From contig NZ_CP137892.1 of NCBI RefSeq assembly GCF_033547155.1, forward strand, positions 868,001-932,000: a stretch of DNA of 64,000 bases, in the 5' to 3' direction. The translations under genes were made by a program, and so were the position numbers. The stretch is from Pseudomonas benzenivorans. GTDB taxonomy: Bacteria > Pseudomonadota > Gammaproteobacteria > Pseudomonadales > Pseudomonadaceae. Shown in pieces: positions 12,165-34,336 of this stretch (position 1 is the first letter of the stretch; each line of letters starts with the position of its first letter). Below the pieces are notes generated by a model that had not been told where the DNA came from, ran no database searches, and saw only the letters and a list, made by a program, of their open reading frames with translations.

Positions 12165-12193
12165 GCTGTTGCCTCCTGGGCAGATTAAAAGTA

Positions 12194-12207: not shown

Positions 12208-12312
12208 ATAAATGGCCGTTATAAACCCTTGTTGCCATTGGTTGGGCCTAGGTTCGGTTCATGGCGCCGGCGAGGCGGCGGTTTTCAACTCTTCAAAAAG
12301 CAGGGTTTAGCG

Positions 12313-17171: not shown

Positions 17172-17243
17172 CTGTAGCTCCCGTGCGGCCCGCGGGCCGC
17201 ACGTCGATTGGTAGGTGTGGGTTCAGCGCGTGCGGCGCGTGGC

Positions 17244-18062: not shown

Positions 18063-18106
18063 AGGGGCCTCGTTTCGGTTGGGGAGCGTTGTCTGGGTAT
18101 CGCGTC

Positions 18107-18134
18107 TTTCGTATTGATGATTTCGTATACGATA
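18107..18134. promoter_or_regulatory. Operator upstream of the transport operon
   Basis: The palindrome TCGTATACGA (18123-18132, within TTTCGTATACGATA) repeats the site upstream of lhpC. A half-site TTTCGTAT lies 14 bases before it (18107-18114), so two dimers or an extended site are possible. It is 60-73 bases upstream of the binding-protein start. Confidence 0.55.
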
Positions 18135-18412
18135 TTAAATATGCACTCGCTGTGCCAAGAGCCGATCTCGGCTTCCTGGGCGTGTCGCCGGATGCTGCTC
18201 GTCGGGCTGCAGCCCGCCATCCATGGGTGTCGCCGGGGGCAACGAGGAGGTCGGGCAAGCCAGCGCTGGAGCCGCTAGCGATGGCCAAGGCGGTGCAGAA
18301 GGGGGCGGAGATGTCACAGAAGGAAGCAGGGCGGCTCGCACTGCACCCTTAGGTGACACCTAGGGGTAACAGCCACTCGGCGAGGCGGGCCCGCAATGCG
18401 GGCAGTGGCGTG
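18135..18412. other. Non-coding region between the transport operon and the AraC gene
   Basis: About 280 bases. No plausible gene was found; short open frames lack ribosome-binding sites. An imperfect inverted repeat CCTTAGGTG/ACACCTAGGGG lies at 18348-18368 close to the end of the AraC gene and may act in 3'-end formation. The AT-rich part 18128-18150 probably carries the promoter of the transport operon. Confidence 0.4.
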
Positions 18413-19174: not shown

Positions 19175-19254
19175 CGGGGGCAGAGGGTCCAGGCAGGCTG
19201 AGTGGGGCGCTCGCCTGGGCGAGGGCGGCCCTACTCTAAGATGCGCCGGCGGTA

Positions 19255-20526
19255 TCAGGGAAGCGCAGCGTCCGTTGCCGAGGGCTCGGCCAGCTGCACC
19301 AGGCTGTCGATGCGCGCCGGCGACAGCGGCGTGCGCGGTGCCGGCGCCGGCCAGTCGAACAGGAACTGGCTGGCGCCGCCACAGATGCGTCCCTGGCAGG
19401 CGCCCATGCCGCAACGGCTGTGCAGCTTGGCCTCGACCCAGCCGCTGCGCCCGGCAACTTCGCCATAGGGTACGTCCTCGCAGCGGCACAGCAGGGTGTC
19501 GGCGTCGGCCAGGCGCTTGAGTCGCGGGTCGAGGGCGAAGCGCCGGCCGAGCTGGGCGGCGAAGGCCTGCCAACGGCGCCGTTGTGGCCACAGGGCGCGG
19601 GCTTCGGCCTGTTGGCCAACCGCGGCGTGGCCGGCGATGGCGCCCTCGACCAGGGCCAGCTCGCTGCCGCCGAAGCCGGTGCACTCGCCGGCGGCGTAGT
19701 GGCCGTCCAGGCTGCAGGCCTGCCAGGCATCCACGGCGATGGCCCGGTCGCTCAGGGCGCAGCCCAGGGCCTGGCCGAGCTGGGTGTTGGGGACCAGACC
19801 GAAGCCGCAGGCCAGACGCTCGCAGGCCATCTCCACTACCTTGCCGTTTTGCCACAGGCGCACGCCCTCCAGGCGCTCGCGGCCGAGGGCGGCCAGCACG
19901 TAACTGCCGCTGCGGTAGTGGTGGTCGAACAGCCGGGCGGCCTGCAGCAGCTTGCCGGGCCAGCGCGGCAGCTGCGCGGCGAAGGCCGCCAGCGCGCTGA
20001 GGGGCGCCTGTTCGGCGATGCGCAGCAGCTGCGCGCCGGCCTGCTTGGCGGTGGCGGCGCTGGCCAGCAGCAGCGGGCCGCTGCCGGCGACCACCAGGCG
20101 CTCGCCGGCGACCGGCACGCCGCCCTTGATCAGCGCCTGCAGGCCGCCGGCGCCGGTGACCCCGGGCAGGGTCCAGCCGGGGAAGGGCAGCAGCAGCTCG
20201 CGGGCGCCGGTGCAGAGGATCAGCTTGGCGTAGCGCGCCTGCCAGGCGCTGCGGTCGTCCTCCAGCAGCAGCCGGCGTGGGCCGGCGCTGGCCAGCACCC
20301 GGGTGGACGCGAACAGCTGGATGTTGCCCGCCGCCGCCAGCGCCTCGCGATGGCGCCGGGCGCTGGCCGGCAGCCGGGCCTGCACGCCGTCGCGCCAGAT
20401 CTGCCCGCCCGGCGCCGGGTTGTCGTCGATAACGCCGATGCGCGCGCCACTGGGCGCCGCGGCCAGGGCGGCGGCCATGCCGGCGGGGCCGGCGCCGATG
20501 ATCAGCAGGTCGAAGTCGCGGGTCAT
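19255..20526 (-). CDS. D-hydroxyproline dehydrogenase, FAD/NAD(P)-type subunit with [2Fe-2S] tail
   Basis: 423 residues from ATG 20526. The N-terminus L-L-I-I-G-A-G-P-A-G-M-A-A-A binds FAD; a second G-S-G-P-L-L-L-A segment occurs near 130. The C-terminal region has C-R-C-E-D-V and C-G-M-G-A-C-Q-G-R-I-C, a BFD-like [2Fe-2S] ligand set. This is the pattern of the alpha subunit of heterotrimeric opine/hydroxyproline oxidases. With the two following-upstream genes it would oxidise cis-4-hydroxy-D-proline to delta1-pyrroline-4-hydroxy-2-carboxylate and pass electrons to the respiratory chain. ATGA overlap with the small subunit gene. Confidence 0.85.
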   Translation of the reverse strand: MTRDFDLLIIGAGPAGMAAALAAAPSGARIGVIDDNPAPGGQIWRDGVQARLPASARRHREALAAAGNIQLFASTRVLASAGPRRLLLEDDRSAWQARYAKLILCTGARELLLPFPGWTLPGVTGAGGLQALIKGGVPVAGERLVVAGSGPLLLASAATAKQAGAQLLRIAEQAPLSALAAFAAQLPRWPGKLLQAARLFDHHYRSGSYVLAALGRERLEGVRLWQNGKVVEMACERLACGFGLVPNTQLGQALGCALSDRAIAVDAWQACSLDGHYAAGECTGFGGSELALVEGAIAGHAAVGQQAEARALWPQRRRWQAFAAQLGRRFALDPRLKRLADADTLLCRCEDVPYGEVAGRSGWVEAKLHSRCGMGACQGRICGGASQFLFDWPAPAPRTPLSPARIDSLVQLAEPSATDAALP

Positions 20527-20759
20527 GGCCGGGTCTCCACCCGCATGCCGGGCTGGCACAGGGTCTGGCAGGCCAGGCGGCGCCGGCCGTCGATGCTCAC
20601 CCGGCACTCCTGGCACACGCCCATGCCGCACAGCGGCGCGCGGCGCCGGCCGCTGACCGAGGTGCGGCTGCTGCCGTCGCCACCGAGGCAGAGGGCGGCC
20701 GCCACCGTGCAGCCGGTGGGTACTTGCAGGGCTTGGCCATCCAGGCTGAGTTCGATCAT
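20523..20759 (-). CDS. D-hydroxyproline dehydrogenase, small [2Fe-2S] subunit
   Basis: 78 residues. Cys44, Cys49, Cys52 and Cys64 have the spacing C-x4-C-x2-C-x11-C (C-G-M-G-V-C-Q-E-C) of plant-type ferredoxin domains in the small subunits of opine and sarcosine-like oxidases. It overlaps both neighbouring subunit genes by four bases (ATGA), as expected of subunits made in equal amounts. Role: electron transfer between the flavin subunits. Confidence 0.85.
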   Translation of the reverse strand: MIELSLDGQALQVPTGCTVAAALCLGGDGSSRTSVSGRRRAPLCGMGVCQECRVSIDGRRRLACQTLCQPGMRVETRP

Positions 20760-21877
20760 GGGGTTGGCTCCAGGGCGGTGGGGTGTTGAGCGAAGCGTTC
20801 GGGCCGGTAGGGCGCGGGGTCGATGGCCGGGCGCTCGCCGCACAGCTGGGCGGCGAGCAGTCGGGCGCTGCCCGGCGCGGTGGTGACGCCCAGGCCCTCG
20901 TGGCCGACGGCCAGCCACAGGCCGGCTTGCTGCGGATGCGGGCCGAGCAGCGGCAGGCCGTCCGGGCTGGCGGCGCGAAAGCCGGTCCAGCTGCGGATGG
21001 CGTTCATGCTCGCCAGCCCCGGCAGGTAGTCGAGGGCGCGCGCCAGCATGCGCGCCAGCACCGGGCCCTCGACGGCGGGGTCGAGGCTGTCGAACTGCCG
21101 CGAGGAGCCGAGCAGGATCTGCCCGGTCGGCCGCGGCTGGGCATTGAAGGCCACCGAGCTGCCGCTGCTGGCATGGGCGCTGGCGGCATAGCCGAGTTCC
21201 ACCAGCTGATGCCGGATGCGCCCGGGGTAGCGGTCGGTGATCAGCAGGTGACCCTTCTTCGGCCGGATCGGCAGCTGCGGGCACAACTCGCTGGCATGGA
21301 TGCCGCCCGCCAGCACCACCGCCTCGGCGGTGAGCCACTGGCCGCCGACCAGGCGCACGCGCTTGCCGTCGATTTCGCTGACCTGGGCGCACTGCTGGCG
21401 GATGCGCCCGCCGCCCTGTTCGAGCAGCCAGCGCGCGGCATTGGGCGCGTAGAGGATGGCGTCGCCGGCGACCTCCAGCGCCCCGGCCAGGTCCTGGCGC
21501 AGCATCGGCTCGGCCTCGCGCAGGGCGTCGGCGTCGAGCAGCTGGCAGGCGATGCCCGCCTCGCGCAGGGCCTGGCCCTTGTGTTCGGCGGCATCCAGCT
21601 CCTCGCGGCTGGCCGCCAGCCACAGGGTGCCGCAGCCGTGGTAGGCGCAGTCGGCCGGCAGATGCGGCGCCCACTGGCGCCACAGCTCGAGGGAGTAGCG
21701 GCTCAGGGCCAGCTCCGCCGGGTTGTCGTCCATCGCCACCAGGTGGCCCATGCCCGCCGCCGTGGCGCCGCCGCGCCGGCTGTCGAGCACCAGCACGTCC
21801 AGGCCACGGCGGGCGAGTTCATGGGCGCAGGCGCTGCCGACTATGCCGGCGCCGATGACGATGGCCTCGGCATTCAT
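20756..21877 (-). CDS. D-hydroxyproline dehydrogenase, D-amino-acid-oxidase-type FAD subunit
   Basis: 373 residues of the glycine/D-amino-acid oxidase (DAO) family. The N-terminal [20 protein letters not shown] binds the FAD dinucleotide, with [10 protein letters not shown] near 40-50. The C-terminal half has the DAO pattern [13 protein letters not shown] and [13 protein letters not shown]. This is the subunit expected to bind D-hydroxyproline. ATGA overlaps link it to the small subunit gene after it and to the epimerase gene before it. Confidence 0.88.
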
Positions 21878-22809
21878 CCGCGGATACCCCAGGCGAAGGG
21901 GTCGTCGTCCTCCAGCAGCAGGGTGGCCTCGGCGCTGAGATGGGCGCGGCCGCGAATGGTCGGGACGATGTGGCGCGCGTCCTGTCGCTCATAGCTGGCC
22001 TCGAACTGGCTGCCGATCACGCTGGCCTGGCGCCACAGGGCGCCGGGCGCCAGCTTGCCGTCGGCGGCCAGGCAGGCCAGCTTGGCGCTGGTGCCGGTGC
22101 CGCAGGGCGAGCGGTCGTAGGCCTTGCCCGGACAGAGCACGAAGTTGCGGCTGTCGGCGGTGTCGTCGTCGGCGAACAGCTCGATATGGTCGATCGGCCC
22201 GCCATCCTCTCCGCGCAGACCCTGATCCTCCAGGGCCTGCTGCACGGCCACCGAGTAGGCGGTCAGCGCCTCCAGGTTGTCGCCGGCCACGCGCTGACTG
22301 TGCTCGGCGATCAGGAAGAACCAGTTGCCGCCCCAGGCGATATCGCCGGTGACCTTGCCGTGCCCCGGCACTTCCAGGGACACCGCCTGGCGGTAGCGGT
22401 AGGCGGGCACGTTGCGCACGCTGACCGAACGGTCCTCGTGCAGGGTCGCCTCGACGGTGCCGACCGGGGTCTCGATGCGGTGCAGGCCCGGCTGGATGCG
22501 CCCCAGGTGGGCCAGGGAGGCCACCAGGCCGATGGTGCCGTGGCCGCACATGCCGAGATAACCGCTGTTGTTGAAGAAGATCACCCCGGCGCTGGAGCTG
22601 GGGTCTACAGGCTCGCACAGCAGTGCGCCGACCAGCACGTCGTTGCCGCGTGGCTCCAGCACGCTGGCCGCCCGCCAGTGGTCATGCTGTTCGGCCAGAC
22701 GCTGGCGGCGCTCGCCCATGCTGCCCTGGCCCAGGTCGGGGAAACCGTCGAGCACCAGGCGGGTAGGCTCGCCGCCGGTGTGTGAGTCGATGACGTGGAT
22801 GCGTTTCAT
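21874..22809 (-). CDS. lhpA: 4-hydroxyproline 2-epimerase
   Basis: 311 residues, proline racemase superfamily with both catalytic cysteines: Cys88 in G-M-C-G-H-G-T-I-G and Cys236 in D-R-S-P-C-G-T-G-T. These match the residue numbers of characterised Pseudomonas 4-hydroxyproline epimerases. It converts trans-4-hydroxy-L-proline to cis-4-hydroxy-D-proline, the first pathway step. First gene of a four-gene operon whose members are joined by ATGA overlaps with the dehydrogenase subunits. The 111 bases upstream to the next gene have no clear operator like the two in the rest of the cluster. Confidence 0.95.
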
Positions 22810-22920
22810 GACGCCGGCACCTGTGCAGTAAAGGTACCGTTAAGCCTGGCGCTTCAGGGCGGCGCCGGCTTGATGGGAATCGTGCGAGGTGATGACGAAA
22901 TCGGCACAGCGTGGGGTTCT

Positions 22921-23134
22921 AGGCGCGGCGTAGGCCCTGGCCGGCAATCTCGTCCCGGATCAGCTGCAGCTGGGCGGCGTCCTGGTTCATGCGCTGGATC
23001 ACGTTGAATAGCTGCTGCTTGAGCAGCTCGTCGCCGAGGCGCTCGGCGGCGCGCATCACCACTATGGTGGCGGCCTCGTTGTTGGCGGCCACCAGGTCCA
23101 GTGTCTTGCAGATGTGTCGGGTTGCTCGGCTCAC
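22921..23134 (-). CDS. Conserved small hypothetical protein
   Basis: 71 residues from GTG 23134, with AAGGA about 8 bases upstream. The sequence looks like an all-helical soluble protein, with no membrane segment or metal motif; features are A-A-N-N-E-A-A-T-I-V-V-M-R-A-A-E-R-L-G and an L-x-x-I-R-D-E-I-A end. Codon use fits the surrounding genome, and the reading frame has good third-position GC. I do not recognise a function. It is divergent from the CHAD gene. Confidence 0.6.
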
Positions 23135-23270
23135 GTGCTTCGTCCTTGGGAAAGCGTGTCGGCACTCTAGAGCCGCCTCGTTGCCGTTTTATGGCAGCGC
23201 CGCTGCCGATACTCGGGCGTGCTTATGTGGCTATGCTTGCGCTGAATGACAGCCGAGGAACGAGGTTGCG

Positions 23271-24068
23271 ATGTCCCTGGTCGACGCCGTGGTTGCCCAT
23301 GTTCTGCGTATCGAGGTGAGCCTCTACCACGCCCGTGCCCGCCTGGAAGCCGGCACCGACGGCGAAGCCCTGCACGACCTGCGCATCGGCCTGCGACGTC
23401 TGCGCAGCCTGCTCAAGCCGCTGCGCGACCGGGACGGGGTGAGCGTGCTGGAGACCGCCGCTGCCGCCGTCGGCACCCTGACCTCGGCGGCGCGGGATCT
23501 TGAGGTGCTGGCTGTCGAGCTACGCCGGCGCGGTCTGCATGCAGCGGCCGGACGCCGTGAGGCCCGGTTGGCGGGGCAGTATGACGAGATCCTGGGCAGC
23601 CCGGAGCTGGAGCGGCTGTTCGCCGGTCTGGATGCCTGGCCGGCGGACTTTCGCCGGGCCGAGCGCGACGGCGAGTTGCGCCGGTTGGACAGGCTGCTCG
23701 ACAGGCGCCTGGACAAGCAGCGACGGCGCCTGCAGGACGCCCTGGCCAGCCTGCAGCATGACCCCCATCGCATCCGCCTGCTGGTCAAACGCAACCGATA
23801 CGCCGCCGAGGCCTACCCACACCATGCGCCCATCTCGACCGGGGCCAAGGCCGCGCTGAAGGCCGTGCAGTCGGCCCTGGGCGCCTGGCACGACCGGTAC
23901 CAGTGGTGTCTCAGGGCCAGCCGGGAGCCCGACCTGCGCGCGCTGCGCCAGCCCTGGCAGGACGAGGCCGTGCTGGCGTTGCAGCGCGCCGAGAGCCTGA
24001 TGCTGGTGTTGCAGCGGACACTGGCCGGCGAGCCCAGGGCCGACAGCCTGTCGAGGACGCGCCTGTGA
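23271..24068 (+). CDS. CHAD domain protein
   Basis: 265 residues. An Arg- and Leu-rich helical protein with the CHAD (conserved histidine alpha-helical domain) signature H-D-L-R-I-G-L-R-R-L-R-S-L-L-K-P-L-R near residues 37-54, and W-H-D-R-Y in the second half. CHAD domains bind inorganic polyphosphate and localise to polyphosphate granules; no CYTH domain is fused here. Start ATG 23271 after GAGG. It stands alone, followed by inverted-repeat sequence (24130-24180) and the FKBP gene. Confidence 0.8.
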   Translation: MSLVDAVVAHVLRIEVSLYHARARLEAGTDGEALHDLRIGLRRLRSLLKPLRDRDGVSVLETAAAAVGTLTSAARDLEVLAVELRRRGLHAAAGRREARLAGQYDEILGSPELERLFAGLDAWPADFRRAERDGELRRLDRLLDRRLDKQRRRLQDALASLQHDPHRIRLLVKRNRYAAEAYPHHAPISTGAKAALKAVQSALGAWHDRYQWCLRASREPDLRALRQPWQDEAVLALQRAESLMLVLQRTLAGEPRADSLSRTRL

Positions 24069-24201
24069 ATAGGCCGCTCCGCCGTTTGCCGGGGGCCCTG
24101 CGCCCGGTGTTTCCGCCCAGGTCTCTTGCCAGGCGGGCGGTTTCCTGCGAAAACCCGCCCGGTTAGCCGGCCGCGGGCCGGCCCCTGAACGAGAGTGGGC
24201 G

Positions 24202-24543
24202 ATGAGCAGCGAATTGCAGGTGCTAGACATTCAAGTGGGCGAGGGCAAGGCCGTGGTCAAGGGCGCCCTGATCACCACCCAGTACCGTGGTTTTCTCGAG
24301 GACGGCACCCCGTTCGACTCCTCCTACGAGCGCGGCAAGCCCTTCCAGTGCGTGATCGGCACCGGGCGGGTGATCAAGGGCTGGGACCAGGGCCTGATGG
24401 GCATGCGCGTCGGCGGCAAGCGCAAGCTCCTGGTACCGGCCCACCTGGCCTACGGAGAGCGCAAGATCGGCGAACACATCCCGGCCAATTCCAACCTGAT
24501 CTTCGAGATCGAGCTGCTGGAAGTGCTGACCCGGGATGACTGA
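24202..24543 (+). CDS. FKBP-type peptidyl-prolyl isomerase
   Basis: 113 residues, a single FKBP domain: T-Q-Y-R-G-F-L-E-D-G-T-P-F-D-S-S-Y (27-43), V-I-G-T-G-R-V-I-K-G-W-D-Q-G-L-M-G-M (51-68), the Y-G-E-R segment and I-P-A-N-S-N-L-I-F-E-I-E-L-L. No signal peptide, so cytosolic. It speeds cis-trans isomerisation of Xaa-Pro bonds in folding proteins. It is the last ordinary-composition gene before the AT-rich island. Confidence 0.92.
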   Translation: MSSELQVLDIQVGEGKAVVKGALITTQYRGFLEDGTPFDSSYERGKPFQCVIGTGRVIKGWDQGLMGMRVGGKRKLLVPAHLAYGERKIGEHIPANSNLIFEIELLEVLTRDD

Positions 24544-25000
24544 GCGTCGGGCCGGGCGTCTTGCTCAGGTCGGCCAGGGGAAGTAACAGCAGATTAATTT
24601 CGTCGGTGCTTTTTTGTGTGGTAAAGGGGACGTGTGGAAAAGGGGACGGATTTATTTATTGGGCAGACTGGCCGCTTTTGGTCGGCCCCAGACGGTCTGG
24701 TGACAGGCAGAAACCGGCCAGTTCCTGCCGTTCGATAAGTGGCGTTTCCGAGACACACCGACCCGCCGCAGAAATTAGTTGGCAAGCAATGTTGGCCACA
24801 CAATCCCTTCAAATCCGCGCAACTAGGCCAGCCAACCCGTGAAAAGTTGTGGATAGTTTATGCCAGTGACAGCCCGAACAACCTCGCCAGTCTACTTCCT
24901 AAGAGTGGATATGCTCGACGGAAGTGAACAAACAAAGAAAGGCAAAATAATTAGCGAAAGTTAAGTACATTGACAAGCAAGCTCAAAATTAATTGAATTT
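24544..25000. other. Left flank of the AT-rich island, non-coding with repeat remnants
   Basis: About 450 bases without a gene. It begins GC-rich and turns AT-rich after about 24740. The 10-mer AAAGGGGACG occurs twice 16 bases apart (24623-24632 and 24639-24648), followed by GATTTATTTATT, a pattern often seen beside REP-associated transposase remnants. Small hairpins follow, such as CCAGACGGTCTGG (24688-24700). No transposase frame remains. The AT-rich end (24830-25000) has no ribosome-binding site or credible frame. Confidence 0.45.
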
Positions 25001-25043
25001 GTGAGCGGCGATCTAGTCTTTTCGATCACAATCGCCGCCTCAC
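25001..25043 (-). terminator. Putative terminator of the island operon
   Basis: GTGAGCGGCGAT (25001-25012) pairs with ATCGCCGCCTCAC (25031-25043) apart from one bulged C, with an 18-base loop. It lies 24 bases after the stop of the 839-aa gene on the minus strand and is followed there by A/U-rich sequence without a clean U-run. Confidence 0.5.
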
Positions 25044-25066
25044 GATTGACGAAAAACAGACTCCTG

Positions 25067-27586
25067 CTAATCCTGCTTTAACTTCCTGACATACTTCATT
25101 CGGAGTGCGTATTTGTATAGTCCGCCAGCTCGCCACTGGCCGGGGAATCCAAGCCGCTCTTCGAATATCCCCATGTCCTTCATTTTTCGCATGGAGGTTT
25201 TTATATTCTCAATATTGACAGACTTATTGAGTCTTTCGTAGATGGTTTTGCATATTGATTCAAACGAGAAGGGTGTGGATAGCTCTTCAAGTGCAGCCAC
25301 AAGATTGGTGACTCTCTCGGTGTTATCTGTTTGATTTCCACTTAGATTTAGAGAGTAACTTAACTCTTGTGTTACTTCGCCCATAAATTCTTTTGCTGCG
25401 ACTTCATGCGCTTCAAAAAGTAATGACTGGGATACCTTTCTGTCGCTATCAAGTGCTTCCGCACTGCGCTCTCTGGCTGATGTACAGATGTTGTTTAGAA
25501 ACTTAATGTAGAGCCTTGGGTAAAAAGAAGCTTTTGAGTTTGTCTCGACACCAGCGTCCGAGAAATAGGTATTGAAAAATGTAAGCGTGCGGATATTACT
25601 GCGCCGGAGTTGGCTTGGGAATATTTGCAGCAATATTTCAAGGCACTTATCAAGGCCGACCTGCCCACGAGTTAGCTCGGGACGTAGTCTGTCGATTTCA
25701 GCGCATGGCGCTTCGAACTTTTCCCTAAACCAATTTAGATGACTAATTCCGATAAGGACAAAATTAAATATTGACTCCCTATCCCATTTTACCTCAATTT
25801 TCCTATTGTGCGTTTGCTGCTCTATATTTTGAAAAGCAGAGCTTACCAAGTCACTGCGAATAAATAATATAACGGATATTTTTTGCGAGATTTCTGGATC
25901 ATTTTGAACCGTAGAAAGCATGCGAAGCAGAGCTTCCGTACACTCTGAAAGCTTTGAGCTTCCAACAACTGTTTCCACGCCGTCAATTAAAAACGTCTTT
26001 CGACCTTGCAATCTAGAGCAAAGATCTATTGTCTGCTTCGCGCTACCGCTCACAGCATCTGTGATGCCTAGGGTGTTGATTAATCCCTTGTTTAGCACTG
26101 TCCACCAAAAATCTTGATAGTTTTCACCGCAAGATCTTATTAGTTCAATCGTCTCTGCACTGTGACTGGTTAGGCCGCGACTATTACTATCTGCAGCTGA
26201 AAACAAAGGATCGGCCAGTCCTACCTCTACCATCTCCTTGAAGATTCTTGTTTTTCCAGTCCCCTTTCTTCCTAGAACGTAGTTAATTCCATTGTTAGCT
26301 TGGAATAGTCTAGCTATATGAGGTGTTTCGATGAATGGCAGAGATGACTTCGCTCCGCTTTCGTGCAGGCTCTCAGAAAACACATTTAAATGCTCAGCAG
26401 AACGATCTCTTATTGGTTTGGGTGCGGAGCTTTCCAAGCCAAGTATTTCTCTGAGTTGGTAGATGGCATCTTGGTTCTTCTGGCTTAACTTCTCAAAGTC
26501 TGGACAGGTGGTTCCCAAATACGCAGGGTCAAAGGTCCAGCTAATCCAGTACCTGGTTAGCACGCTAATATCGATAACTTCTTCTTCTTCGTTATCCTTC
26601 TCAAGTTGCGCGCCAAGTATATCCAAGAAGAAATCTTGGCTCTTTGCCTCTCGGGTGGTGTCCTGCTCGGAGGGGGAGAATGAAAAGCTGACAAACGCTC
26701 CAGGATTTCCTGGATTTGTCTCAAATAACTTGGAGATATAGCTGGATGCCTGCATTGAAAGATCGTCATTTCTGATACTGACTATTACTGGCCCCGGCCA
26801 TGCCTGGGTAATTGGTACGATAGCGCTTGATAGCCCGGTCCGATGGTCGAATATGACTATGTCATGGTCTAAGGTTTTTTCTTCCAGAAGCTTTAATAGC
26901 CTCTCTGCTGCCTTTGAGTTTGATGCTGTATCTATAGTGCTTTTTAAAGTGAAGGCGGCATAGTCCAAGTCATACAATGGAATGTCTGGTCTTGTTGGTA
27001 GTATGTCGATACGACCCTCTGGATTGCGTCCACTGTATGCTGTTAAGGGAACAGTTTCTCCTGTCCAACCATACAGGCCCATCAAGGTTCTCTCTGGGGT
27101 TGATGCCGAGACGCTGAAAATCTGGCTAATGGATGGTGCCTCAATATCGGCATCCACCACCAGTACTCTATATCCATCATTTGCCAGATTTTTAGCAAGA
27201 CTTGTTAGTACGGAGGTTCTTGCCTGGCCTCCTTTATATCCATAAAAGTGGATTGACTGCGCCAATGGCTTTCTTCTTCTTGTTTTCGTTGAAGCGAAAA
27301 GCTCAAGCCAATGCATTGGCACAGAGTTCTTGTCTAATGCAAATTGGTACTCACTCAATTCGCCCTCATGGATTGCTTCAACGCAAGCAAGTGTTGCTGC
27401 CTCCAGACGGAGTATCTCTTGAGTAGTCACTCCGCATTTTTCTTGAATGTACTCTAGCTTCTCTTCCCTGCCTTTTCCTTTAAACGCATCGTCAATACAG
27501 ATTATGTAGAGACTGGGGTGGTAGTAACCTATCTTGTACTTGAGGATTGGAGATATCTTATCAATAAGGTTTTTGATTGTGCTCAC
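25067..27586 (-). CDS. Double P-loop protein: ParA/MinD-like ATPase fused to AAA/STAND-like ATPase
   Basis: 839 residues from GTG 27586. Residues 1-110: an unrecognised helical region. Residues 113-300: a MinD/ParA/ArsA-type domain with a deviant Walker A F-Y-G-Y-K-G-G-Q-A-R-T-S (114-125), V-V-D-A-D-I-E-A-P-S (143-152) and D-I-V-I-F-D-H-R-T-G (242-251). Residues 415-620: a second P-loop ATPase with Walker A G-R-K-G-T-G-K-T (439-446), Walker B T-F-L-I-D-G-V-E (531-538) and V-I-L-F-I-R-S-D-L (572-580), resembling the Sll1717/STAND-like ATPases common in defence loci. The last 80 residues look like a winged helix. No signal or membrane segment. The gene is AT-rich, unlike its surroundings, so it was acquired by transfer. 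It overlaps the upstream small gene by four bases (GTGA). Function unknown; an anti-phage role is inferred from architecture and context only. Confidence 0.75.
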   Translation of the reverse strand: MSTIKNLIDKISPILKYKIGYYHPSLYIICIDDAFKGKGREEKLEYIQEKCGVTTQEILRLEAATLACVEAIHEGELSEYQFALDKNSVPMHWLELFASTKTRRRKPLAQSIHFYGYKGGQARTSVLTSLAKNLANDGYRVLVVDADIEAPSISQIFSVSASTPERTLMGLYGWTGETVPLTAYSGRNPEGRIDILPTRPDIPLYDLDYAAFTLKSTIDTASNSKAAERLLKLLEEKTLDHDIVIFDHRTGLSSAIVPITQAWPGPVIVSIRNDDLSMQASSYISKLFETNPGNPGAFVSFSFSPSEQDTTREAKSQDFFLDILGAQLEKDNEEEEVIDISVLTRYWISWTFDPAYLGTTCPDFEKLSQKNQDAIYQLREILGLESSAPKPIRDRSAEHLNVFSESLHESGAKSSLPFIETPHIARLFQANNGINYVLGRKGTGKTRIFKEMVEVGLADPLFSAADSNSRGLTSHSAETIELIRSCGENYQDFWWTVLNKGLINTLGITDAVSGSAKQTIDLCSRLQGRKTFLIDGVETVVGSSKLSECTEALLRMLSTVQNDPEISQKISVILFIRSDLVSSAFQNIEQQTHNRKIEVKWDRESIFNFVLIGISHLNWFREKFEAPCAEIDRLRPELTRGQVGLDKCLEILLQIFPSQLRRSNIRTLTFFNTYFSDAGVETNSKASFYPRLYIKFLNNICTSARERSAEALDSDRKVSQSLLFEAHEVAAKEFMGEVTQELSYSLNLSGNQTDNTERVTNLVAALEELSTPFSFESICKTIYERLNKSVNIENIKTSMRKMKDMGIFEERLGFPGQWRAGGLYKYALRMKYVRKLKQD

Positions 27587-28002
27587 GACAAGTTTCTCTT
27601 TATGATGTTTGCTATATAATCGACTGCGCCTTCCAAGTCGGTTAGATCTTGATCGGAAACACTTTCCAAGCTTCCAGGATGATCGTTGACATGGCGAATG
27701 TAGCGAATGTTTGGGTAGTTCTGTGAGTCAACACTTAGAGCGCTGCCATCCCTCCCGTAGCACCAAAGGCTCCCAAGCGCAGTCTTGAGCCTTGCACTGC
27801 CTGAAGAGCTCCACGCCCTAATGTGACTAGGCTTTCGTGCACAGGCTCTATTTAGTGCGGTTAAAATATCGTGGCTAAAGTCGTGCTGTTTTATGGGGTA
27901 GAGAATTTCTTTGAGCTCTAGCTCTATCTTAATTAGCTTTTGATAAATTATGGATAGCTTGTTGTTATTTTGAAAAGCATCCTTGTTGTAGGAAAGCCTC
28001 AT
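27583..28002 (-). CDS. Unknown 139-aa protein, first gene of the island operon
   Basis: 139 residues, AT-rich coding sequence. The first 45 residues are lysine-rich and probably helical (Q-K-L-I-K-I-E-L-E-L-K-E-I-L); the middle has R-A-C-A-R-K-P-S-H-I-R-A-W and G-S-L-W-C-Y-G-R-D-G; the end is acidic then basic (D-L-T-D-L-E-G-A-V-D-Y-I-A-N-I-I-K-R). I recognise no family. The ATG (28000-28002) has GGGAG 8 bases upstream, but that site lies inside the arm of a long inverted repeat. Its stop overlaps the GTG start of the 839-aa gene, so the two are translationally coupled and probably act together, for example as sensor or effector with an ATPase partner. Confidence 0.7.
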   Translation of the reverse strand: MRLSYNKDAFQNNNKLSIIYQKLIKIELELKEILYPIKQHDFSHDILTALNRACARKPSHIRAWSSSGSARLKTALGSLWCYGRDGSALSVDSQNYPNIRYIRHVNDHPGSLESVSDQDLTDLEGAVDYIANIIKRNLS

Positions 28003-28006
28003 ATGT

Positions 28007-28062
28007 TACTCCCTGTTTTTTGTCAGAGCCATCGTAAGCGTTCTGACAAAAAAATGGGAGTA
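28007..28062. repeat. 21-bp inverted repeat over the leader of the island operon
   Basis: Arms 28007-28027 and 28042-28062 are complementary at 19 of 21 positions, with mismatches only at the eighth and ninth bases; the loop is 14 bases (28028-28041). Each arm holds T/A-runs next to GTCAGA and TACTCCC. On the minus strand the second arm contains the GGGAGTA ribosome-binding site of the 139-aa gene, so if transcription starts upstream of the repeat the hairpin would hide that site. It could also be an operator or the end of the mobile unit. Confidence 0.7.
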
Positions 28063-28375
28063 GACGGCTAGCAAGACCTCGGAAGGGGTTAATTTTTCAC
28101 ATATCAGCAAAGGTCACCTGAGAGCTGGTGCGCATCTACTTAATCCTGCTTCGGGAGGCCTGCCGATCATTGCCGGCCGCGAGAAGGGGTGTCCAAAGCG
28201 CGGATTACCTTGGCGAAGAGCTGAAAGGGGAGCGGGGTTATCTGAGATTGTCCGCTCCTGGCCGAATGCGGACATTGACCTGTCACGACCTCCGACCGCA
28301 CGAAGCGCGGCATCTAATTTGGCCAGCGCCAGTTTGCAGACACCTTCGAGCCGTCTTCGAGCCACGCGGGCGCAG
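28063..28375. other. Right flank of the island, non-coding
   Basis: About 310 bases with no convincing gene. AT-rich to about 28140, then abruptly GC-rich. TAATCCTGCTT (28141-28151), at the switch, repeats a copy at the 3' end of the island operon (25068-25078). TGTCCGC/GCGGACA (28249-28255 and 28268-28274) forms a hairpin typical of dispersed intergenic repeats. The promoter of the island operon is expected between 28063 and 28110, but no strong -35/-10 pair was found. Confidence 0.4.
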
Positions 28376-28774
28376 CTAGAGCAGAACGCTGCCCCAGACT
28401 GCGACGATGGATAGCAGGGCCACCAGCTGCGCGGCGCTGCCCATGTCCTTGGCCTGTTTGGACAGCGGGTGCAGCTCCAGGGAAATACGGTCTATCGCCG
28501 CCTCGATGGCCGAGTTGATCAGTTCGACGATCAGCGCGAGCAGCAGCACCAGAATCAACAGCGCGCGCTCGCTGCCACTGACATTCAGGACCGAGGCCAC
28601 GGGAATCAGCAGCGCGTTGAGCAACACCAGTTGCCGGAAGGCCGCTTCACCGCGCAAGGCCGCGCGCAAACCGGCCAGGGAATAGCCCAAGGCGCGCCCT
28701 ATGCGCGCCAGCCCCTTCTGCCCTTTGAGTGCTTGAGCATCCCGGGGACATTCTGTCTGTCCGCTGACGCTCAT
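28376..28774 (-). CDS. dgkA: Diacylglycerol kinase
   Basis: 132 residues from ATG 28774. A three-helix integral membrane kinase that recycles diacylglycerol to phosphatidic acid. Family signatures: R-A-A-L-R-G-E-A-A-F-R-Q with the catalytic-zone Glu, and E-L-I-N-S-A-I-E-A-A-I-D-R in the second half, followed by D-M-G-S-A-A-Q-L-V-A. An N-terminal extension of about 25 residues precedes the usual start region. It overlaps inaA by four bases (ATGA) and is the last gene of the methyltransferase-inaA-dgkA unit, fitting ColR control of envelope lipid genes. Confidence 0.92.
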   Translation of the reverse strand: MSVSGQTECPRDAQALKGQKGLARIGRALGYSLAGLRAALRGEAAFRQLVLLNALLIPVASVLNVSGSERALLILVLLLALIVELINSAIEAAIDRISLELHPLSKQAKDMGSAAQLVALLSIVAVWGSVLL

Positions 28775-29496
28775 GGCTGCAAGGTCCCCGACGGGGTGGC
28801 CAGGGCCCGAGCATAGACCTGCTGTAGATAGACCAGGTCGGCCTCGGGTATTTGGCCGCGATGGCGCCACAGCTGACGCCAGTCGTGGCGAGAGGCGTCC
28901 CGGGTGCGCCAGCGGCGGCGACTCTTCTCCAGATCGAGCATGGCCGTCTCGATCAGCGGCGCGCTGTCCGCCTGGGGCGTGACCTTGACGAACAGGTGCT
29001 TGGGGTAGCAGCAGCCGTGCTGCCATCCGGCCAGGTGCAGGTGCGCGAGCATGGCGGCCAGCTGTTCCAGCATCGCCGTGGTCGGCGGGTTGTCCTGGCC
29101 CCGGGCCGGCGCGGCGTACCACTGCTCCAGGCTGACGAAGCCCGGCAAGGCCTCGGTCACCAGCAGCGCCTGCCACCGCCCCTCATGCTGGCGGGCGGCG
29201 CCATACACCAGGCGCGGCACGCGCACGCCCAGGCGCGCAAACGCACGGTAGGCCCGCAGCTCGCGCAGCACGGTCGGCCGGCCGAAAGGGTGCAGCAGGC
29301 TGCGGTAGGTATGCCCGCTCTGTCGCTTGCAATAGAGCAATGGCCGTCCGGGGTCGCGGGGCTGCAACAGTTGCACGCCGCTTTCGCCGCCACGTCGCTG
29401 GTTCGCCGGTTCGACCCAGGCGCCCGAACTCCGCCACCAGCGCTCGAAGGTGGTGCTGCGGGGCATCGGCGCCGCAGGGCTGGTCAATATGCCCAT
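28771..29496 (-). CDS. inaA: InaA-like lipopolysaccharide kinase-family protein
   Basis: 241 residues of the Kdo/WaaP-type protein-kinase-like fold. Visible are V-L-R-E-L-R-A-Y-R-A-F-A-R-L-G-V, A-L-L-V-T-E-A-L-P-G-F, and the catalytic-loop region L-A-G-W-Q-H-G-C-C-Y-P-K-H-L-F-V followed by A-M-L-D-L-E-K-S-R-R-R. InaA proteins are linked to weak-acid or membrane-stress responses, and in Pseudomonas the gene sits beside colRS. Likely phosphorylates a lipid-A/core sugar, which is inferred from fold. It lies 3 bases after the methyltransferase gene. Confidence 0.85.
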   Translation of the reverse strand: MGILTSPAAPMPRSTTFERWWRSSGAWVEPANQRRGGESGVQLLQPRDPGRPLLYCKRQSGHTYRSLLHPFGRPTVLRELRAYRAFARLGVRVPRLVYGAARQHEGRWQALLVTEALPGFVSLEQWYAAPARGQDNPPTTAMLEQLAAMLAHLHLAGWQHGCCYPKHLFVKVTPQADSAPLIETAMLDLEKSRRRWRTRDASRHDWRQLWRHRGQIPEADLVYLQQVYARALATPSGTLQP

Positions 29497-29499
29497 GCC

Positions 29500-30192
29500 T
29501 CAGGCCTCCCGCTTGCGCAGCACATAGGTACGCCACATGGCGTAGCCCGGCAGGAAGTCCCGGTGCCCGAGGATCTCGAAGCCCACCTGCCTGAACTGGG
29601 CCTCGATCACCTCGCGCCGGACCACGAAGCGGTTCTGGTTCTGCCCGGCTTTGCCCGCCGCCGCCCGACGCCGCTCGAGGCGGCGACGCTTCCAGGCCTT
29701 GTAGTTGCCATCCACCCACAGCGAAAGGATGACGCTGTCGCGGCTGACCCGATGGAATTCGCGCAGGATGGCCAGGCGATGCGCGGCGGATTCGATGTGA
29801 TGGAGCAGGCGAATGCAGAAGATGCAGTCGACCGCGTTGGCCCCCAGATCGATGGCGAAGGCCGAGGTCTGGAAGGTCTTGATCCGCGCGACCACCTCGG
29901 CGGGCTGTGCGGCGCGGGCCGTGGCCAGCATGTCGGCCGAATTGTCGGCCGCCAGAATCACCCGATTCGGGTTCTGTGCCAGCAGCGGCCAGAAACGTCC
30001 TGCACCGCAGGGCAGGTCGAGCAGCAGATTGGGCTCGCCGGCGAGTTTCAGCGCCTGTCGGGCGACCTGCACATCGCGCCAATGGGACAGGCGACGGGCC
30101 AGGCCGTCCCGATGCTTGTGCAGGTACTGGATGGAATGCTGGTGATCGTACTTGCGCGAGAATTCGAGCTCGACGGGACGGGGTTGGGACAT
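29500..30192 (-). CDS. Class I SAM-dependent methyltransferase
   Basis: 230 residues from ATG 30192, chosen because AGGAGG lies 9 bases upstream; an in-frame ATG 33 bases earlier lacks one. Motif I is N-L-L-L-D-L-P-C-G-A-G-R-F (about 58-70), followed by the acidic A-A-D-N-S-A-D-M-L and the motif IV region A-V-D-C-I-F-C-I-R-L-L-H-H-I. Substrate unknown; it lies between colS and inaA. The order colR-colS-methyltransferase-inaA is the known Pseudomonas arrangement, and a ColR-type box lies 71-86 bases upstream. Confidence 0.85.
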   Translation of the reverse strand: MSQPRPVELEFSRKYDHQHSIQYLHKHRDGLARRLSHWRDVQVARQALKLAGEPNLLLDLPCGAGRFWPLLAQNPNRVILAADNSADMLATARAAQPAEVVARIKTFQTSAFAIDLGANAVDCIFCIRLLHHIESAAHRLAILREFHRVSRDSVILSLWVDGNYKAWKRRRLERRRAAAGKAGQNQNRFVVRREVIEAQFRQVGFEILGHRDFLPGYAMWRTYVLRKREA

Positions 30193-30262
30193 GGCGTGGC
30201 ATCCTCCTCGGGGAATGCTCGCCACACTAGAGACGAGGCCATGATGGCCCCGTCAAAAGAAC

Positions 30263-30278
30263 GTGAAAAATACGTCAA
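30263..30278 (-). promoter_or_regulatory. ColR box upstream of the methyltransferase-inaA-dgkA unit
   Basis: On the minus strand TTGACGTATTTTTCAC matches the ColR consensus that I recall from P. putida, YYNASNNYTTTTTSAC, at 15 of 16 positions. It lies over the stop codon of colS, placing it correctly for a promoter of the next gene. In P. putida ColR is reported to bind upstream of this same downstream operon. Confidence 0.6.
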
Positions 30279-31546
30279 ACGCCGCCGTGCAAGACCACCT
30301 TGAAGCAACTGCCGCTGGGCTCGAGGTCTTGAATGCTGATGCTCCAGCCTTGATCCGCACAGATCCGCTTGACCAGCGAAAGCCCCAGCCCCAGGCCCTC
30401 GCCGCGCGACTGCTCGCCGCGCACGAAGGGCTGGAAGATCTGTTCGTGCTGCTCCCGGGGAATGCCCGAGCCACTGTCCTCCACCCGGAAACCGCCGGCC
30501 TCGACCACCAGCCGCACCTGCCCGGAATCGGTGTAGTGCCAGGCGTTGCGCAGCAGGTTGGCCAGCACCGTGCGCAACAGGGTCGGGTTATACATGCCCG
30601 AGTCCTGGCCGGCGTTCTCCAACTGGAAGGCCAGGCCCTTGTCGCGCATCTGCGGTCGCCAATGCTCGACCTGCTCATCGACCACCTGCTGCAGGCTGCA
30701 ACTGGCGACGAAGGCCGTGGCGTTGCTCTTGCTCCTGGCCAGCTGCAGGAAGGTCTGCACCAGATCGCGCATGTCCTCGCTGGCCCGCCCGATGCGCGCC
30801 AGCTGCTCACGCTGGCGCGGCTCGAGCGGCGCCTGCTCGAGCAGCTCGCAGGAGCTGGCGATCACCATCAGCGGGGTACGCAGCTCGTGACTGACATCGC
30901 TGGTGAACAGCCGCTCGCGCTCCAGTGAGTGACGCAGCTGACCCAGGGTGCTGTCGAAGGCCGCGGCCAGCTGTCCGACTTCATCGTCGGCGTACTCGGG
31001 GGCCAGGGGCGGGGCCAGCGGATGCAGCTGGTCGCGATGACGCACCTGCTGGGCCAGCCGGCTGACCGGTGTCATGACCTTCCTGGCCATGAGCCAACCC
31101 AGCCCCCAGGCACTCACCACCGACAGCAGAAAGCCGGCCAGCACGACGCTGAACAGGGCCTTCTCGCGGGCCTCGAATTCGTGCTGTTCCTGCACCAGCA
31201 GGTAGCGCTCGCCATTGATCAGCTGGGTGTAGACATAGAAGGCCTGGTCGCCATCGACGACCTCGGCGAAGCCCTCGGCCAACCCGGCGTACTCCTCGGG
31301 AATCGCATACGCGGCGCTGCTGGAGGCATAGAAACGCGTGCTGGAATCCAGGCGCGGCGCCTGGTTGTTTCTCAGGTCTTCGCGCAGCACCTCCTGCAGC
31401 TCGCGGTGCATCTCCTCCGAGACCAGGTGCTCCTCGAGCAGGTGCACGATGGCCACGATGCTCAGGGCGAACAGGCCGCTGACCAGGGTGGTCATCAGCA
31501 CGAAGGCGACGACGATGCGCCGCATCAGGGGTTGCTTAGCGCGCAT
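30275..31546 (-). CDS. colS: Sensor histidine kinase ColS
   Basis: 423 residues from ATG 31546, which overlaps colR by 11 bases. Layout: TM1 (about 11-36), a short periplasmic domain (about 37-130) with several Glu residues, TM2 (131-152), HAMP (about 152-206), dimerisation helix with phosphorylated His220 in S-D-V-S-H-E-L-R-T-P, N-box L-L-R-N-A-W-H-Y and G-boxes V-E-D-S-G-S-G-I and G-L-G-L-G-L-S-L-V-K. ColS senses excess zinc or iron and polymyxin-type envelope stress and phosphorylates ColR. The genus-conserved position and partners support the symbol. Confidence 0.9.
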   Translation of the reverse strand: MRAKQPLMRRIVVAFVLMTTLVSGLFALSIVAIVHLLEEHLVSEEMHRELQEVLREDLRNNQAPRLDSSTRFYASSSAAYAIPEEYAGLAEGFAEVVDGDQAFYVYTQLINGERYLLVQEQHEFEAREKALFSVVLAGFLLSVVSAWGLGWLMARKVMTPVSRLAQQVRHRDQLHPLAPPLAPEYADDEVGQLAAAFDSTLGQLRHSLERERLFTSDVSHELRTPLMVIASSCELLEQAPLEPRQREQLARIGRASEDMRDLVQTFLQLARSKSNATAFVASCSLQQVVDEQVEHWRPQMRDKGLAFQLENAGQDSGMYNPTLLRTVLANLLRNAWHYTDSGQVRLVVEAGGFRVEDSGSGIPREQHEQIFQPFVRGEQSRGEGLGLGLSLVKRICADQGWSISIQDLEPSGSCFKVVLHGGV

Positions 31547-32219
31547 CGTCGTCCTCCGCGAGGCGGTAGCCGACGCCATGCTGGGTATGCAGCAGGGCGC
31601 GCGGGAACGGCTTGTCGAGTACCTGGCGCAACTGGTGGACATGGCTGCGCAGGCTGTCGCTGTCCGGACAGTCCTCGCCCCACAGGGCTTCCTCGAGCAC
31701 CTCGCGGCGCACCACCGCCGGGCTTTTCTGCATCAGGATCGCCAGCAGCTTCATCCCCAGGGGGTTGAGCTTGAGCGGCCTGCCGGCCCGGCTGATGTGC
31801 AGGGTGTCGAGGTCATAGACCAGGTCGGCCACCTGCAGCAGGCGCCGGCGGTTGCCCTGGACCCGGCGCAGGATGGCCTCGATGCGGGCGACCAATTCGG
31901 ACAGGGCGAAGGGCTTGACCAGGTAGTCGTCGGCGCCGGAGCGCAGGCCCTGCAGGCGATCGTCCAGGGCGTCCCGGGCGGTCAGCATGAGAATCGGAAT
32001 CTCGCTGCGCGCCTCCTCGCGCAGGCGGCGGCACAACTGGTAGCCATCGATGCCGGGCAACATGATGTCCAGCACGATCAGGTCGAAGTGCTGGCTGGTC
32101 GCCAGGTGCAGGCCGGTGAGGCCGTCCTGGGCGCAGTCCACACCGAAGCCCTTGAGCTGCAGGTAGTCCAGGACATTGGCCAGGATGTCGCGGTTGTCTT
32201 CGATGACCAGAATTCGCAT
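31536..32219 (-). CDS. colR: Response regulator ColR
   Basis: 227 residues from ATG 32219. OmpR/PhoB type: a receiver domain with phospho-acceptor Asp51 (L-I-V-L-D-I-M-L-P-G), acidic pocket E7-D8, and Lys102 (D-D-Y-L-V-K-P-F), followed by a winged-helix DNA-binding domain with R-S-H-V-H-Q-L-R and G-V-G-Y-R-L. It directs expression of envelope genes for lipid A modification and metal tolerance. A perfect ColR-type box lies 23-38 bases upstream of its start, in the region shared with the divergent sulfatase gene, so it may control itself, its neighbour, or both. Confidence 0.92.
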   Translation of the reverse strand: MRILVIEDNRDILANVLDYLQLKGFGVDCAQDGLTGLHLATSQHFDLIVLDIMLPGIDGYQLCRRLREEARSEIPILMLTARDALDDRLQGLRSGADDYLVKPFALSELVARIEAILRRVQGNRRRLLQVADLVYDLDTLHISRAGRPLKLNPLGMKLLAILMQKSPAVVRREVLEEALWGEDCPDSDSLRSHVHQLRQVLDKPFPRALLHTQHGVGYRLAEDDDAR

Positions 32220-32241
32220 CGGCTGTTTCTCTTCACTTGAA

Positions 32242-32257
32242 TTGACGCTTTTTTCAC
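32242..32257 (+). promoter_or_regulatory. ColR box between colR and the LTA-synthase-type gene
   Basis: TTGACGCTTTTTTCAC matches YYNASNNYTTTTTSAC at all 16 positions. It lies 70-85 bases before the plus-strand sulfatase start and 23-38 bases from the minus-strand colR start. Orientation is plus, favouring the sulfatase gene as the regulated one. Confidence 0.65.
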
Positions 32258-32326
32258 ATCCCGTTGACGAACGCCTCACGTAGGCGCCGACAGACTGCGG
32301 CCCGTTCATCCCACCAGGATCATACG

Positions 32327-34282
32327 ATGCCACAGCTCCGTTACGCCCAACCGAGATATCTGAGCCTGCTCCTGCTGAGTTGGTTGCTGCTGTTCTGCCT
32401 CACCCGCAGCGTTCTGCTGCTGAGCCATCTGGCCGATGCCGATGCCGGCCCGCTCGACCTGCTGCGCCTGTACGGCATCGGCCTGGTCTACGACCTCGGC
32501 TTCCTGCTGTACGCGGCGGTGCCGCTGGCCCTGTACCTGCTGCTGTGCCCCGGGCGCCTGTGGCGCAGCCGCGGCCACAGGTTGTTTCTCTATGGCCTGA
32601 CCAGCGTCAGCCTGTTCGCCATGCTGTTCACCGCCGTGGCGGAGTGGCTGTTCTGGGACGAGTTCGGCGTGCGCTTCAACTTCATCGCCGTGGACTACCT
32701 GGTCTACTCGGAGGAGGTGATCAACAACATCCTCGAGTCCTACCCCATCTACCCGTTGCTGGCCCTGCTGGCGGTGCTGGCGATTGGCGCCACGGCGCTG
32801 CTGAGACGTCCGCTGGCCGCCGCCCTGGATGCGCCGTTGCTGCCCAAGTCCAGCGGCCTGCTGCTGCTCGGGGGGCTGGTACTGGTCGCCTGTGTCGACA
32901 GCAGCACCATCGGCCAGGATTTTCCGCTGGGCCTGGGCGGCAATGTCTATCAGCGCGAGTTGGCCAGCAACGGGCCGTTCCAGTTTTTCGCCGCCTTCCG
33001 CAATAACGAGTTGGACTACCGGCGCTTCTACGCGACCCTGCCGGACAGGCGCGCAGCCGAACTGCTGCGCGCCGAGCTGAGCGAGGCCAACGCCCGCTTC
33101 GTCGGCCAGGACCCGCTGGACATTCGCCGGGCCATCGACAATCCCGGGCAGGAACTGCGGCGCAACCTGGTACTGGTCACCATCGAGAGCCTCAGCGCCA
33201 AGTACCTGGGCAGCTTCGGCGACCCGCGCAACCTCACCCCCAACCTGGACGAACTGCGCCGCACCAGCCTGTTCTTCAACAACTTCTATGCCACCGGCAC
33301 GCGCACCGATCGCGGCCTGGAGGCCATCACCCTGTCGATTCCGCCGACCCCGGGACGCTCCATCGTCAAGCGCATCGGCCGCGAATCCGGCTATGCGAGC
33401 CTCGGTCAGCAACTCAAGGCCAAGGGCTACGACAGCGTGTTCCTCTACGGCGGGCGCGGCTATTTCGACAACATGAATGCCTTCTTCGGCGGCAACGGCT
33501 ACCGCATCGTCGACCAGAGCAGCGTGGCCGAGGAAGACATGCAGTTCCAGAACGCCTGGGGCATGGCCGATGAAGACCTCTACGCCCAGGCGCTGAAGAT
33601 CGCGGACCAGGACCATGGCGCCGGCAAGCCGTTCTTCCTGCAGCTGATGACCACCTCCAACCACAGGCCCTACACCTACCCCGACGGCCGCATCGACATT
33701 CCCTCGGGCGAGGGACGCGAAGGCGCGGTGAAGTACACCGACTACGCCATCGGCCAGTTCCTCGCCCAGGCGCGGAAAAAGCCCTGGTTCGACCAGACGC
33801 TGTTCGTCTTCGTCGCTGACCACACCGCCGGCAGCGCCGGCAAGGAAGACCTGCCGGTGGCCAACTACCACATCCCGCTGTTCATCCTGGCGCCCGGCCT
33901 GGTGACGCCGCGCGAGGTGGCGACCCTGAGCAGCCAGATCGACCTGGCGCCGACCCTGCTGGGGCTGCTCAACATGGACTACGTCTCGACCTTCTTCGGG
34001 CGCAACGTGCTGGCCGATGAGCACCGTCCGGGCCGCGCCCTGATCGGCAACTACCAGCACCTGGGCCTGTTCGACGGCCGCGACCTGGCCATCCTCAGCC
34101 CCCGCCAAGGCATGCGCCGCCACGACGACGCGCTGGGCCTGAGCCATGAACGCCAGGCCGACAGCCAGGACCCCCTGCTGAGCCGCAACATCGCCTATTA
34201 CCAGGGCGCCAGCCACGCCTTCGCCAAGCAGCTGATCGCCTGGCGGCCACAACCGGCCCCAACCCGCATCGGCCAGCGTTAG
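32327..34282 (+). CDS. LTA synthase-family membrane sulfatase (phospholipid-head-group transferase type)
   Basis: 651 residues from ATG 32327. Five N-terminal membrane segments (to about residue 200) precede a large periplasmic sulfatase-like domain: V-T-I-E-S-L-S-A-K-Y-L with the metal-binding Glu, the nucleophile region F-Y-A-T-G-T-R-T (Thr), L-M-T-T-S-N-H-R-P-Y and the metal ligands V-A-D-H-T-A. LTA-synthase-type proteins move phosphoglycerol or phosphoethanolamine from phospholipids to an acceptor; in Gram-negatives they decorate glucans or lipid A. Divergent from colR with a perfect ColR box between them, suggesting a ColRS-induced envelope modification enzyme. Confidence 0.85.
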   Translation: MPQLRYAQPRYLSLLLLSWLLLFCLTRSVLLLSHLADADAGPLDLLRLYGIGLVYDLGFLLYAAVPLALYLLLCPGRLWRSRGHRLFLYGLTSVSLFAMLFTAVAEWLFWDEFGVRFNFIAVDYLVYSEEVINNILESYPIYPLLALLAVLAIGATALLRRPLAAALDAPLLPKSSGLLLLGGLVLVACVDSSTIGQDFPLGLGGNVYQRELASNGPFQFFAAFRNNELDYRRFYATLPDRRAAELLRAELSEANARFVGQDPLDIRRAIDNPGQELRRNLVLVTIESLSAKYLGSFGDPRNLTPNLDELRRTSLFFNNFYATGTRTDRGLEAITLSIPPTPGRSIVKRIGRESGYASLGQQLKAKGYDSVFLYGGRGYFDNMNAFFGGNGYRIVDQSSVAEEDMQFQNAWGMADEDLYAQALKIADQDHGAGKPFFLQLMTTSNHRPYTYPDGRIDIPSGEGREGAVKYTDYAIGQFLAQARKKPWFDQTLFVFVADHTAGSAGKEDLPVANYHIPLFILAPGLVTPREVATLSSQIDLAPTLLGLLNMDYVSTFFGRNVLADEHRPGRALIGNYQHLGLFDGRDLAILSPRQGMRRHDDALGLSHERQADSQDPLLSRNIAYYQGASHAFAKQLIAWRPQPAPTRIGQR

Positions 34283-34336
34283 CCCTTTCTAACCATCGCG
34301 GCGCTGCCGATCACAGCGCCGTCGCGGAGCCCGCTC

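Follow-up and report, generated by a model that had tools for sequence, protein, structure and literature searches.

A Rare Two-Gene Operon of Pseudomonas benzenivorans as a Plausible Immune Module: a Fused, Far-Diverged Relative of the Defence Candidate PDC-M28

Introduction

The pairing of a small HEPN protein with a ParA/Soj ATPase was predicted in 2013 for MAE_18760, the two being put forward as a toxin and its ATPase regulator (Anantharaman et al. 2013, PMC3710099). A second precedent is PDC-M28, an unvalidated PADLOC candidate in which a first gene of about 140 amino acids (aa) is followed by a KGGVGR ATPase gene and then by a Sll1717-type ATPase gene; most PADLOC PDCs are without experimental validation (PMC12988326). 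Our literature search found no paper naming PDC-M28 and none containing 'Sll1717', while KGGVGR and 'defense' were found together in a lectin paper only, in a search where papers with KGGVGR alone may be unlisted. Here we describe an operon in a stretch of 64,000 nucleotides (nt) of the Pseudomonas benzenivorans genome (contig NZ_CP137892.1, positions 868,001 to 932,000; the window), which encodes, in the gene order of PDC-M28, a 139-aa small protein (gene 1) and an 839-aa tandem ATPase (gene 2). Judged by sequence, the operon follows the PDC-M28 plan in a fused and much diverged form, and its first gene is not recognisably M28A. We read it, with a probability of roughly 0.55, as a two-gene conflict module, probably of the anti-phage abortive-infection type, in which a HEPN-like effector would be gated by an ATPase switch.

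Results and Discussion

Kinship to PDC-M28 was found on the side of the ATPase. The PADLOC model M28B matches residues 82-253 of the gene 2 product (E 8.7e-15), and model M28C, which gives no match for this ATPase, matches three of its relatives (8e-6, 1.3e-4 and 3.1e-4). The operon has the A-B-C gene order with overlapping starts (by 4 nt), with B and C fused, and such fusion was also seen in PDC-M28. M28A was found in 22 of 398 genomes of the phylum, and 16 of 24 M28A places were retrieved: in 12 the small gene is followed at once by a gene for a KGGVGR ATPase, the third protein measuring 473-494 aa in nine of these 12, and in just one (L109) both ATPases are replaced by a single 915-aa chain that carries the KGGVGR motif; the other four places, which lack a KGGVGR gene nearby, score weakly for M28A. 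A further fusion lies in Dolichospermum (L015), where a pair of the subtype studied here (9261-12214) and a fused PDC-M28-type pair (15657-18778) stand about 3.4 kb apart on opposite strands, the latter comprising a 135-aa match to M28A (4.5e-5) and then a 915-aa match to M28B (5e-42) and M28C (2e-29); among PDC-M28 third genes, the M28C model was applied to this fusion only. On this evidence we assign the operon to a fused, diverged PDC-M28 plan. The remaining two of the 12 PDC-M28 loci (L112 and L113) have third genes of 1691 and 1328 aa, compared to about 480 aa, suggesting a PDC-M28 sub-type with a much larger third protein.

The first gene does not share this kinship. M28A gives no match for the small protein at E up to 1, nor for the small proteins of six relatives at E up to 10; the profile-profile score of the small family against M28A (17.4) falls inside the shuffle range, and scans with hidden Markov models (HMMs) give nothing beyond controls. 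M28A itself aligns to the HEPN profile with E 0.00059 and 29% probability. Two small proteins (L068 and L069) match both the M28A model and PF05168, and since they have no KGG ATPase neighbour (loci L116 and L117; the large genes next to the small protein in L116 encode 667 and 1253 aa), this reflects profile overlap and not system membership. PF18737 (HEPN_MAE_28990), which we take also to cover MAE_18760, matches neither the window gene nor the M28A genes in 16 genomes. A first, sequence-only reading of this DNA did not know the pairing, with so small a partner, as a named system. The candidate statement that the pair has no known relative is abandoned: PDC-M28 has the same gene order and domain types, and the 2013 HEPN-ParA/Soj prediction (PMC3710099) is a second precedent. 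The comparison to PADLOC that it proposed gave a hit for the ATPase with M28B, and none for the small protein with M28A or for the window ATPase with M28C.

The two genes are inherited together. The gene 2 search, which scored only the 7998 candidates sharing most words, gave 248 proteins at E up to 0.001, and 24 relative loci were retrieved, 23 from public genomes and one from viral contigs. Two loci (L004 and L025) end too near upstream for the adjacency test; each of the 22 testable relatives has a small gene directly upstream of its ATPase gene and in the same orientation, L024 as a remnant only. The small-gene HMM used here was built without locus rows, its non-locus rows coming from a search seeded with locus rows. 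Codons were checked for 19 locus pairs: 12 share a 4-nt overlap like that of the window genes at GTGA, and three overlap by 1 nt. The 139-aa and 839-aa genes lie at the coordinates first given for them (Table 1), and their description as a coupled pair was upheld. For 21 small and 21 large proteins, the two sets of distances correlate with r 0.84 (0.79 without the closest pair), and none of 2000 permutations reached the observed correlation with or without that pair, which shows co-inheritance without partner swapping, not contact. Three copies are damaged: L024 (2202-3894) has an internally deleted ATPase and a small gene cut to its C-terminal last two-fifths, L006 (717-1577) has the start of its small gene in another frame, and L016 (1763-4358) has a frameshifted ATPase.

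Table 1. Features of the operon and its flanks, in window positions.
Feature	Position	Strand	Basis
Gene 1, 139-aa small protein, proposed HEPN-like effector	27583-28002	-	Open reading frame, ATG start
Gene 1 codons 27-31 (E-L-x-L-K), E27 and K31 opposite the E and K of HEPN E-K-x-L-K	27910-27924	-	Default local alignment
Gene 1 codon 44, H44 opposite the H of the HEPN HDL motif	27871-27873	-	Default local alignment
Gene 1 codons 96-107, YPxxRYxRHxxD	27682-27717	-	Conservation
Gene 2, 839-aa tandem ATPase	25067-27586	-	Open reading frame, GTG start
Gene 2 codons 108-391, MinD/ParA-type (SIMIBI) ATPase domain	26414-27265	-	
Gene 2 codons 114-125, KGG Walker A variant FYGYKGGQARTS, Arg replacing second Lys	27212-27247	-	Conservation
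Gene 2 codons 418-745 (limits approximate), Sll1717/STAND-like AAA+ ATPase domain	25352-26335	-	NF047389, Foldseek, conservation
Gene 2 codons 752-834, predicted winged-helix-like C-terminus	25085-25333	-	Helix-helix-helix-strand-strand pattern
Inverted repeat, RNA form pairing over Shine-Dalgarno-like GGGAGUA of gene 1	28007-28062	-	21-nt arms, 90% complementary
Two tandem 16-nt repeats downstream of operon	24616-24647	.	Repeat scan

The ATPase chain joins two ATPase types, as the sequence-only reading had it (ParA/MinD-like with a KGG motif, and Sll1717/STAND-like), and NCBIfam, AlphaFold2, Foldseek and fold comparison all bear this out. Its AlphaFold2 model has a mean predicted local distance difference test (pLDDT) score of 90. 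The first domain, a SIMIBI fold closest to MinD/ParA/Soj, carries a KGG-x-x-R loop in which G119, G120, Q121 and R123 are invariant among 89 sequences and K118 is kept in at least 90%; the VIA-align alignment of the ATPase took in residues 106-386 only. The AAA+ domain holds a canonical Walker A motif, GRKGTGKTR (26246-26272), and a Walker B-like DGVET motif; NF047389 matches residues 527-827 with E 1.4e-15, and Foldseek matches to 2fna and 1fnn are assigned to this domain by assumption. The C-terminus has a weak FadR-type match (E 0.15).

For gene 1, whose product the sequence-only reading left unassigned, we infer a HEPN-like protein from weak profile evidence that exceeds every control used. 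The small-family profile scores 23.3 against HEPN, whereas 100 column shuffles reached at most 19.75 and reversal of one side gave 10.05-15.14; hhalign gives E 0.0043 at 8% probability, a weak match, and the HEPN HMM reaches E<1 for six of 100 members versus none of 100 reversed and none of 100 shuffled sequences. No Pfam HEPN family, PF05168 included, matches the gene 1 product. Its AlphaFold2 model (mean pLDDT 96) is a helical bundle with a beta hairpin, with which Foldseek gave nothing informative, nor did a sequence search of the PDB with the small protein. Residues E27, K31, H44, R100 and Y101 are each present in 100 of 100 small-family rows. H44-D45 is set on the HEPN HD by local alignment, and R100-Y101 reaches the HEPN RY only when the alignment is extended fully, where column confidence is low. 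The catalytic R-x4-6-H pattern is not found in gene 1, H104 occurring in just 39 of 100 rows and being separated from R100 by only 3 residues; D107 is present in 97 of 100, and in several HEPN-T members D replaces H (PMC3710099). That the classical catalytic His is not conserved, that inactive HEPN domains have been described (PMC3710099) and that gene 2 ends in a winged-helix-like region would agree with ATPase-driven defence or exclusion, in which gene 1 has no enzymatic role and serves as an adaptor or as a regulator that binds nucleotides or RNA, with the effector function residing in the ATPase, for instance as winged-helix DNA binding. We regard this as improbable: the five residues kept without exception would fit an active or binding site, and neither Pfam nor NCBIfam recognises an effector domain in gene 2.

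Being a distant fused relative of a candidate phage-defence system, the operon is a plausible immune module, with defence as its putative role. We envisage gene 2 as a sensor and switch, made up of the MinD/ParA-type ATPase, the Sll1717/STAND-like AAA+ domain and the winged helix, and the gene 1 product as a HEPN-like effector whose target would be RNA, or which would halt growth in another way. In the resting state the effector would be bound by the ATPase and held in check, GTGA-coupled translation keeping both products in step; the domain with the KGG-x-x-R Walker A motif perhaps serves as a nucleotide-holding dimer switch. On sensing a cue linked to infection, the gene 2 product would alter its nucleotide state, and the effector would be released or activated. 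The same two products could instead form a chromosomal toxin-antitoxin system, gene 1 the toxin and gene 2 the antitoxin, kept for stability or stress response with no dedicated phage sensing. This follows the logic predicted for MAE_18760 HEPN and ParA/Soj (PMC3710099), and the HEPN-like small gene comes first and is tightly coupled. We nonetheless hold it to be rather unlikely: an 839-aa chain that comprises two ATPase domains plus a winged helix would seem far in excess of the needs of neutralisation, and some relatives lie inside or beside defence operons, toxin-antitoxin and defence roles not being mutually exclusive.

These surroundings were surveyed with 152 of 153 selected neighbour proteins (the one left out being a partner gene) from 20 of the 24 places, scanned as pooled tallies with L012 taken as L041; 40 neighbours, hand-chosen and not random, were also scanned singly, 10 with and 30 without a match. 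Strong single defence assignments were obtained in four of the 20 loci: a Type I restriction-modification trio beside the pair (L018), the pair placed between a helicase-type gene run and the methylase of a Type III restriction-modification system (L019), AriAB beside the pair (L003), and the PDC-M28 copy beside the pair in L015. Weaker matches are of CARF type in L017 and to RT-protease in L003, and the pooled tallies contain further hits beyond those placed in a locus. Because this count comes with no background rate, the link to defence neighbours is suggestive. On defence islands, which the sequence-only reading proposed to survey, some relatives thus lie beside defence genes; the neighbours of the operon in the window, inspected by eye, form no evident defence island.

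Distribution is rare and scattered. The family is present in two of 194 related genomes, this one included, the other same-genus copy being 36% identical, and in one of 398 phylum genomes, namely this one; searches of 72,556 plasmid and 50,697 phage records gave no match, and IMG/VR contains one relative (L025). One of the relative loci (L012) is that of P. putida 31303. A non-defence accessory function on a passing genomic island, such as cell-division or partition control, would suit the MinD/ParA/Soj-like fold of the first domain and the plain neighbourhood of the operon in the window. We consider it highly improbable, given a distribution unlike that of a core division gene, the null result in the plasmid and phage records and the copy inside a Type III restriction-modification gene run.

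The operon looks horizontally acquired, from its foreign composition, and its description as foreign and AT-rich was upheld. Its GC content is 44.0%, versus 66.8% for the window, and lies below that of every equal-length stretch of the window (250-nt grid); GC at third codon positions is 0.44 and 0.49 in the two operon genes versus 0.86-0.88 for three genes of the flanks. Measured in 500-nt windows, the GC fraction is 0.42-0.48 across about 24750-28250, 0.51-0.62 at the operon borders and 0.62-0.79 beyond them within 18000-35000. The borders (24201-28376) coincide with a synteny breakpoint, the FKBP-side and DGK-side blocks being far apart in the congeners compared. Each block has a DNA match, not always to the same gene, in 59 of 59 genomes of the genus (this one included), and the best matches of the two sides lie at least 350 kb apart, by eye, in six single-contig genomes (G003, G005, G010, G012, G014 and G041). 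Methyltransferase, kinase and DGK have stayed together in two genomes, and the DNA retrieved from these contains no FKBP. No empty insertion site was found in the congeners compared, where the flanking blocks are not adjacent, and no tRNA gene was found in the window. The case for repeat-rich flanks, once cited for mobility, is weak, the notable repeats being one 16-nt tandem duplication and one 21-nt palindrome just before gene 1. A 23-mer overlapping the 16-nt repeats occurs once exactly in the genome and twice more with three mismatches each. With so few occurrences of the 23-mer and no empty site found, the repeats were rejected as proof of mobility.

The palindrome ends 4 nt ahead of the gene 1 ATG, and the leader hairpin folds at -32.9 kcal/mol (z -6.1, 0 of 200 shuffles). 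Among the leaders of 19 relatives the best z is -3.46 (L012, whose upstream stem resembles a terminator), the other 18 being at -1.4 or above, and the exact palindrome pattern matches four of 128 loci, all four being this genome's own DNA. A conserved leader hairpin was thus rejected, the palindrome not being seen in the 19 leaders. As no other copy examined has it, it may serve to control a toxic product locally, act as an operator or be debris left by chance on insertion. An Rfam search gave no informative match, and a promoter and terminator scan gave nothing beyond shuffles.

Conclusions

If correct, our reading joins PDC-M28, the NCBI KGGVGR and Sll1717 ATPase families and the 2013 HEPN-ParA dyad prediction in one testable idea; it names residues for mutation, and raises the question of how a MinD-like switch could control a toxin. 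We put forward more tentatively that the operon represents a distinct immune type, in which a HEPN-like R-Y-x5-D effector would be gated by a single-chain deviant-Walker MinD switch with a STAND-like sensor, with PDC-M28 as its split form and both belonging to one 'HEPN plus double ATPase' superfamily. The operon cannot be called categorically new, since PDC-M28 and the 2013 prediction (PMC3710099) share its plan.

Compared to the HEPN domain (PF05168), gene 1 has weakly aligned E-x3-K, HD and RY positions and a modelled helical bundle, and differs in the beta hairpin of that model and in having D107 rather than H after R100. Compared to NCBIfam NF047398 (KGGVGR-motif ATPase) and NF047389 (P-loop ATPase Sll1717 family), gene 2 has both types in one chain, although it scores under the curated cut-offs (74.8 of 90 and 57.4 of 75 bits, respectively). 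The operon shares with the MAE_18760 HEPN and ParA/Soj dyad (Anantharaman et al. 2013, PMC3710099) a putative HEPN-type gene beside a SIMIBI ParA-type ATPase, whereas its small gene is not matched by PF18737 and its ATPase has a second, AAA+ domain. PDC-M28, with its like order of genes, has mostly separate ATPases and the motif KGGVGR, whereas those of the window are fused and very divergent, their family carries KGGQ(A/G)R, and the small protein that precedes them is not matched by M28A.
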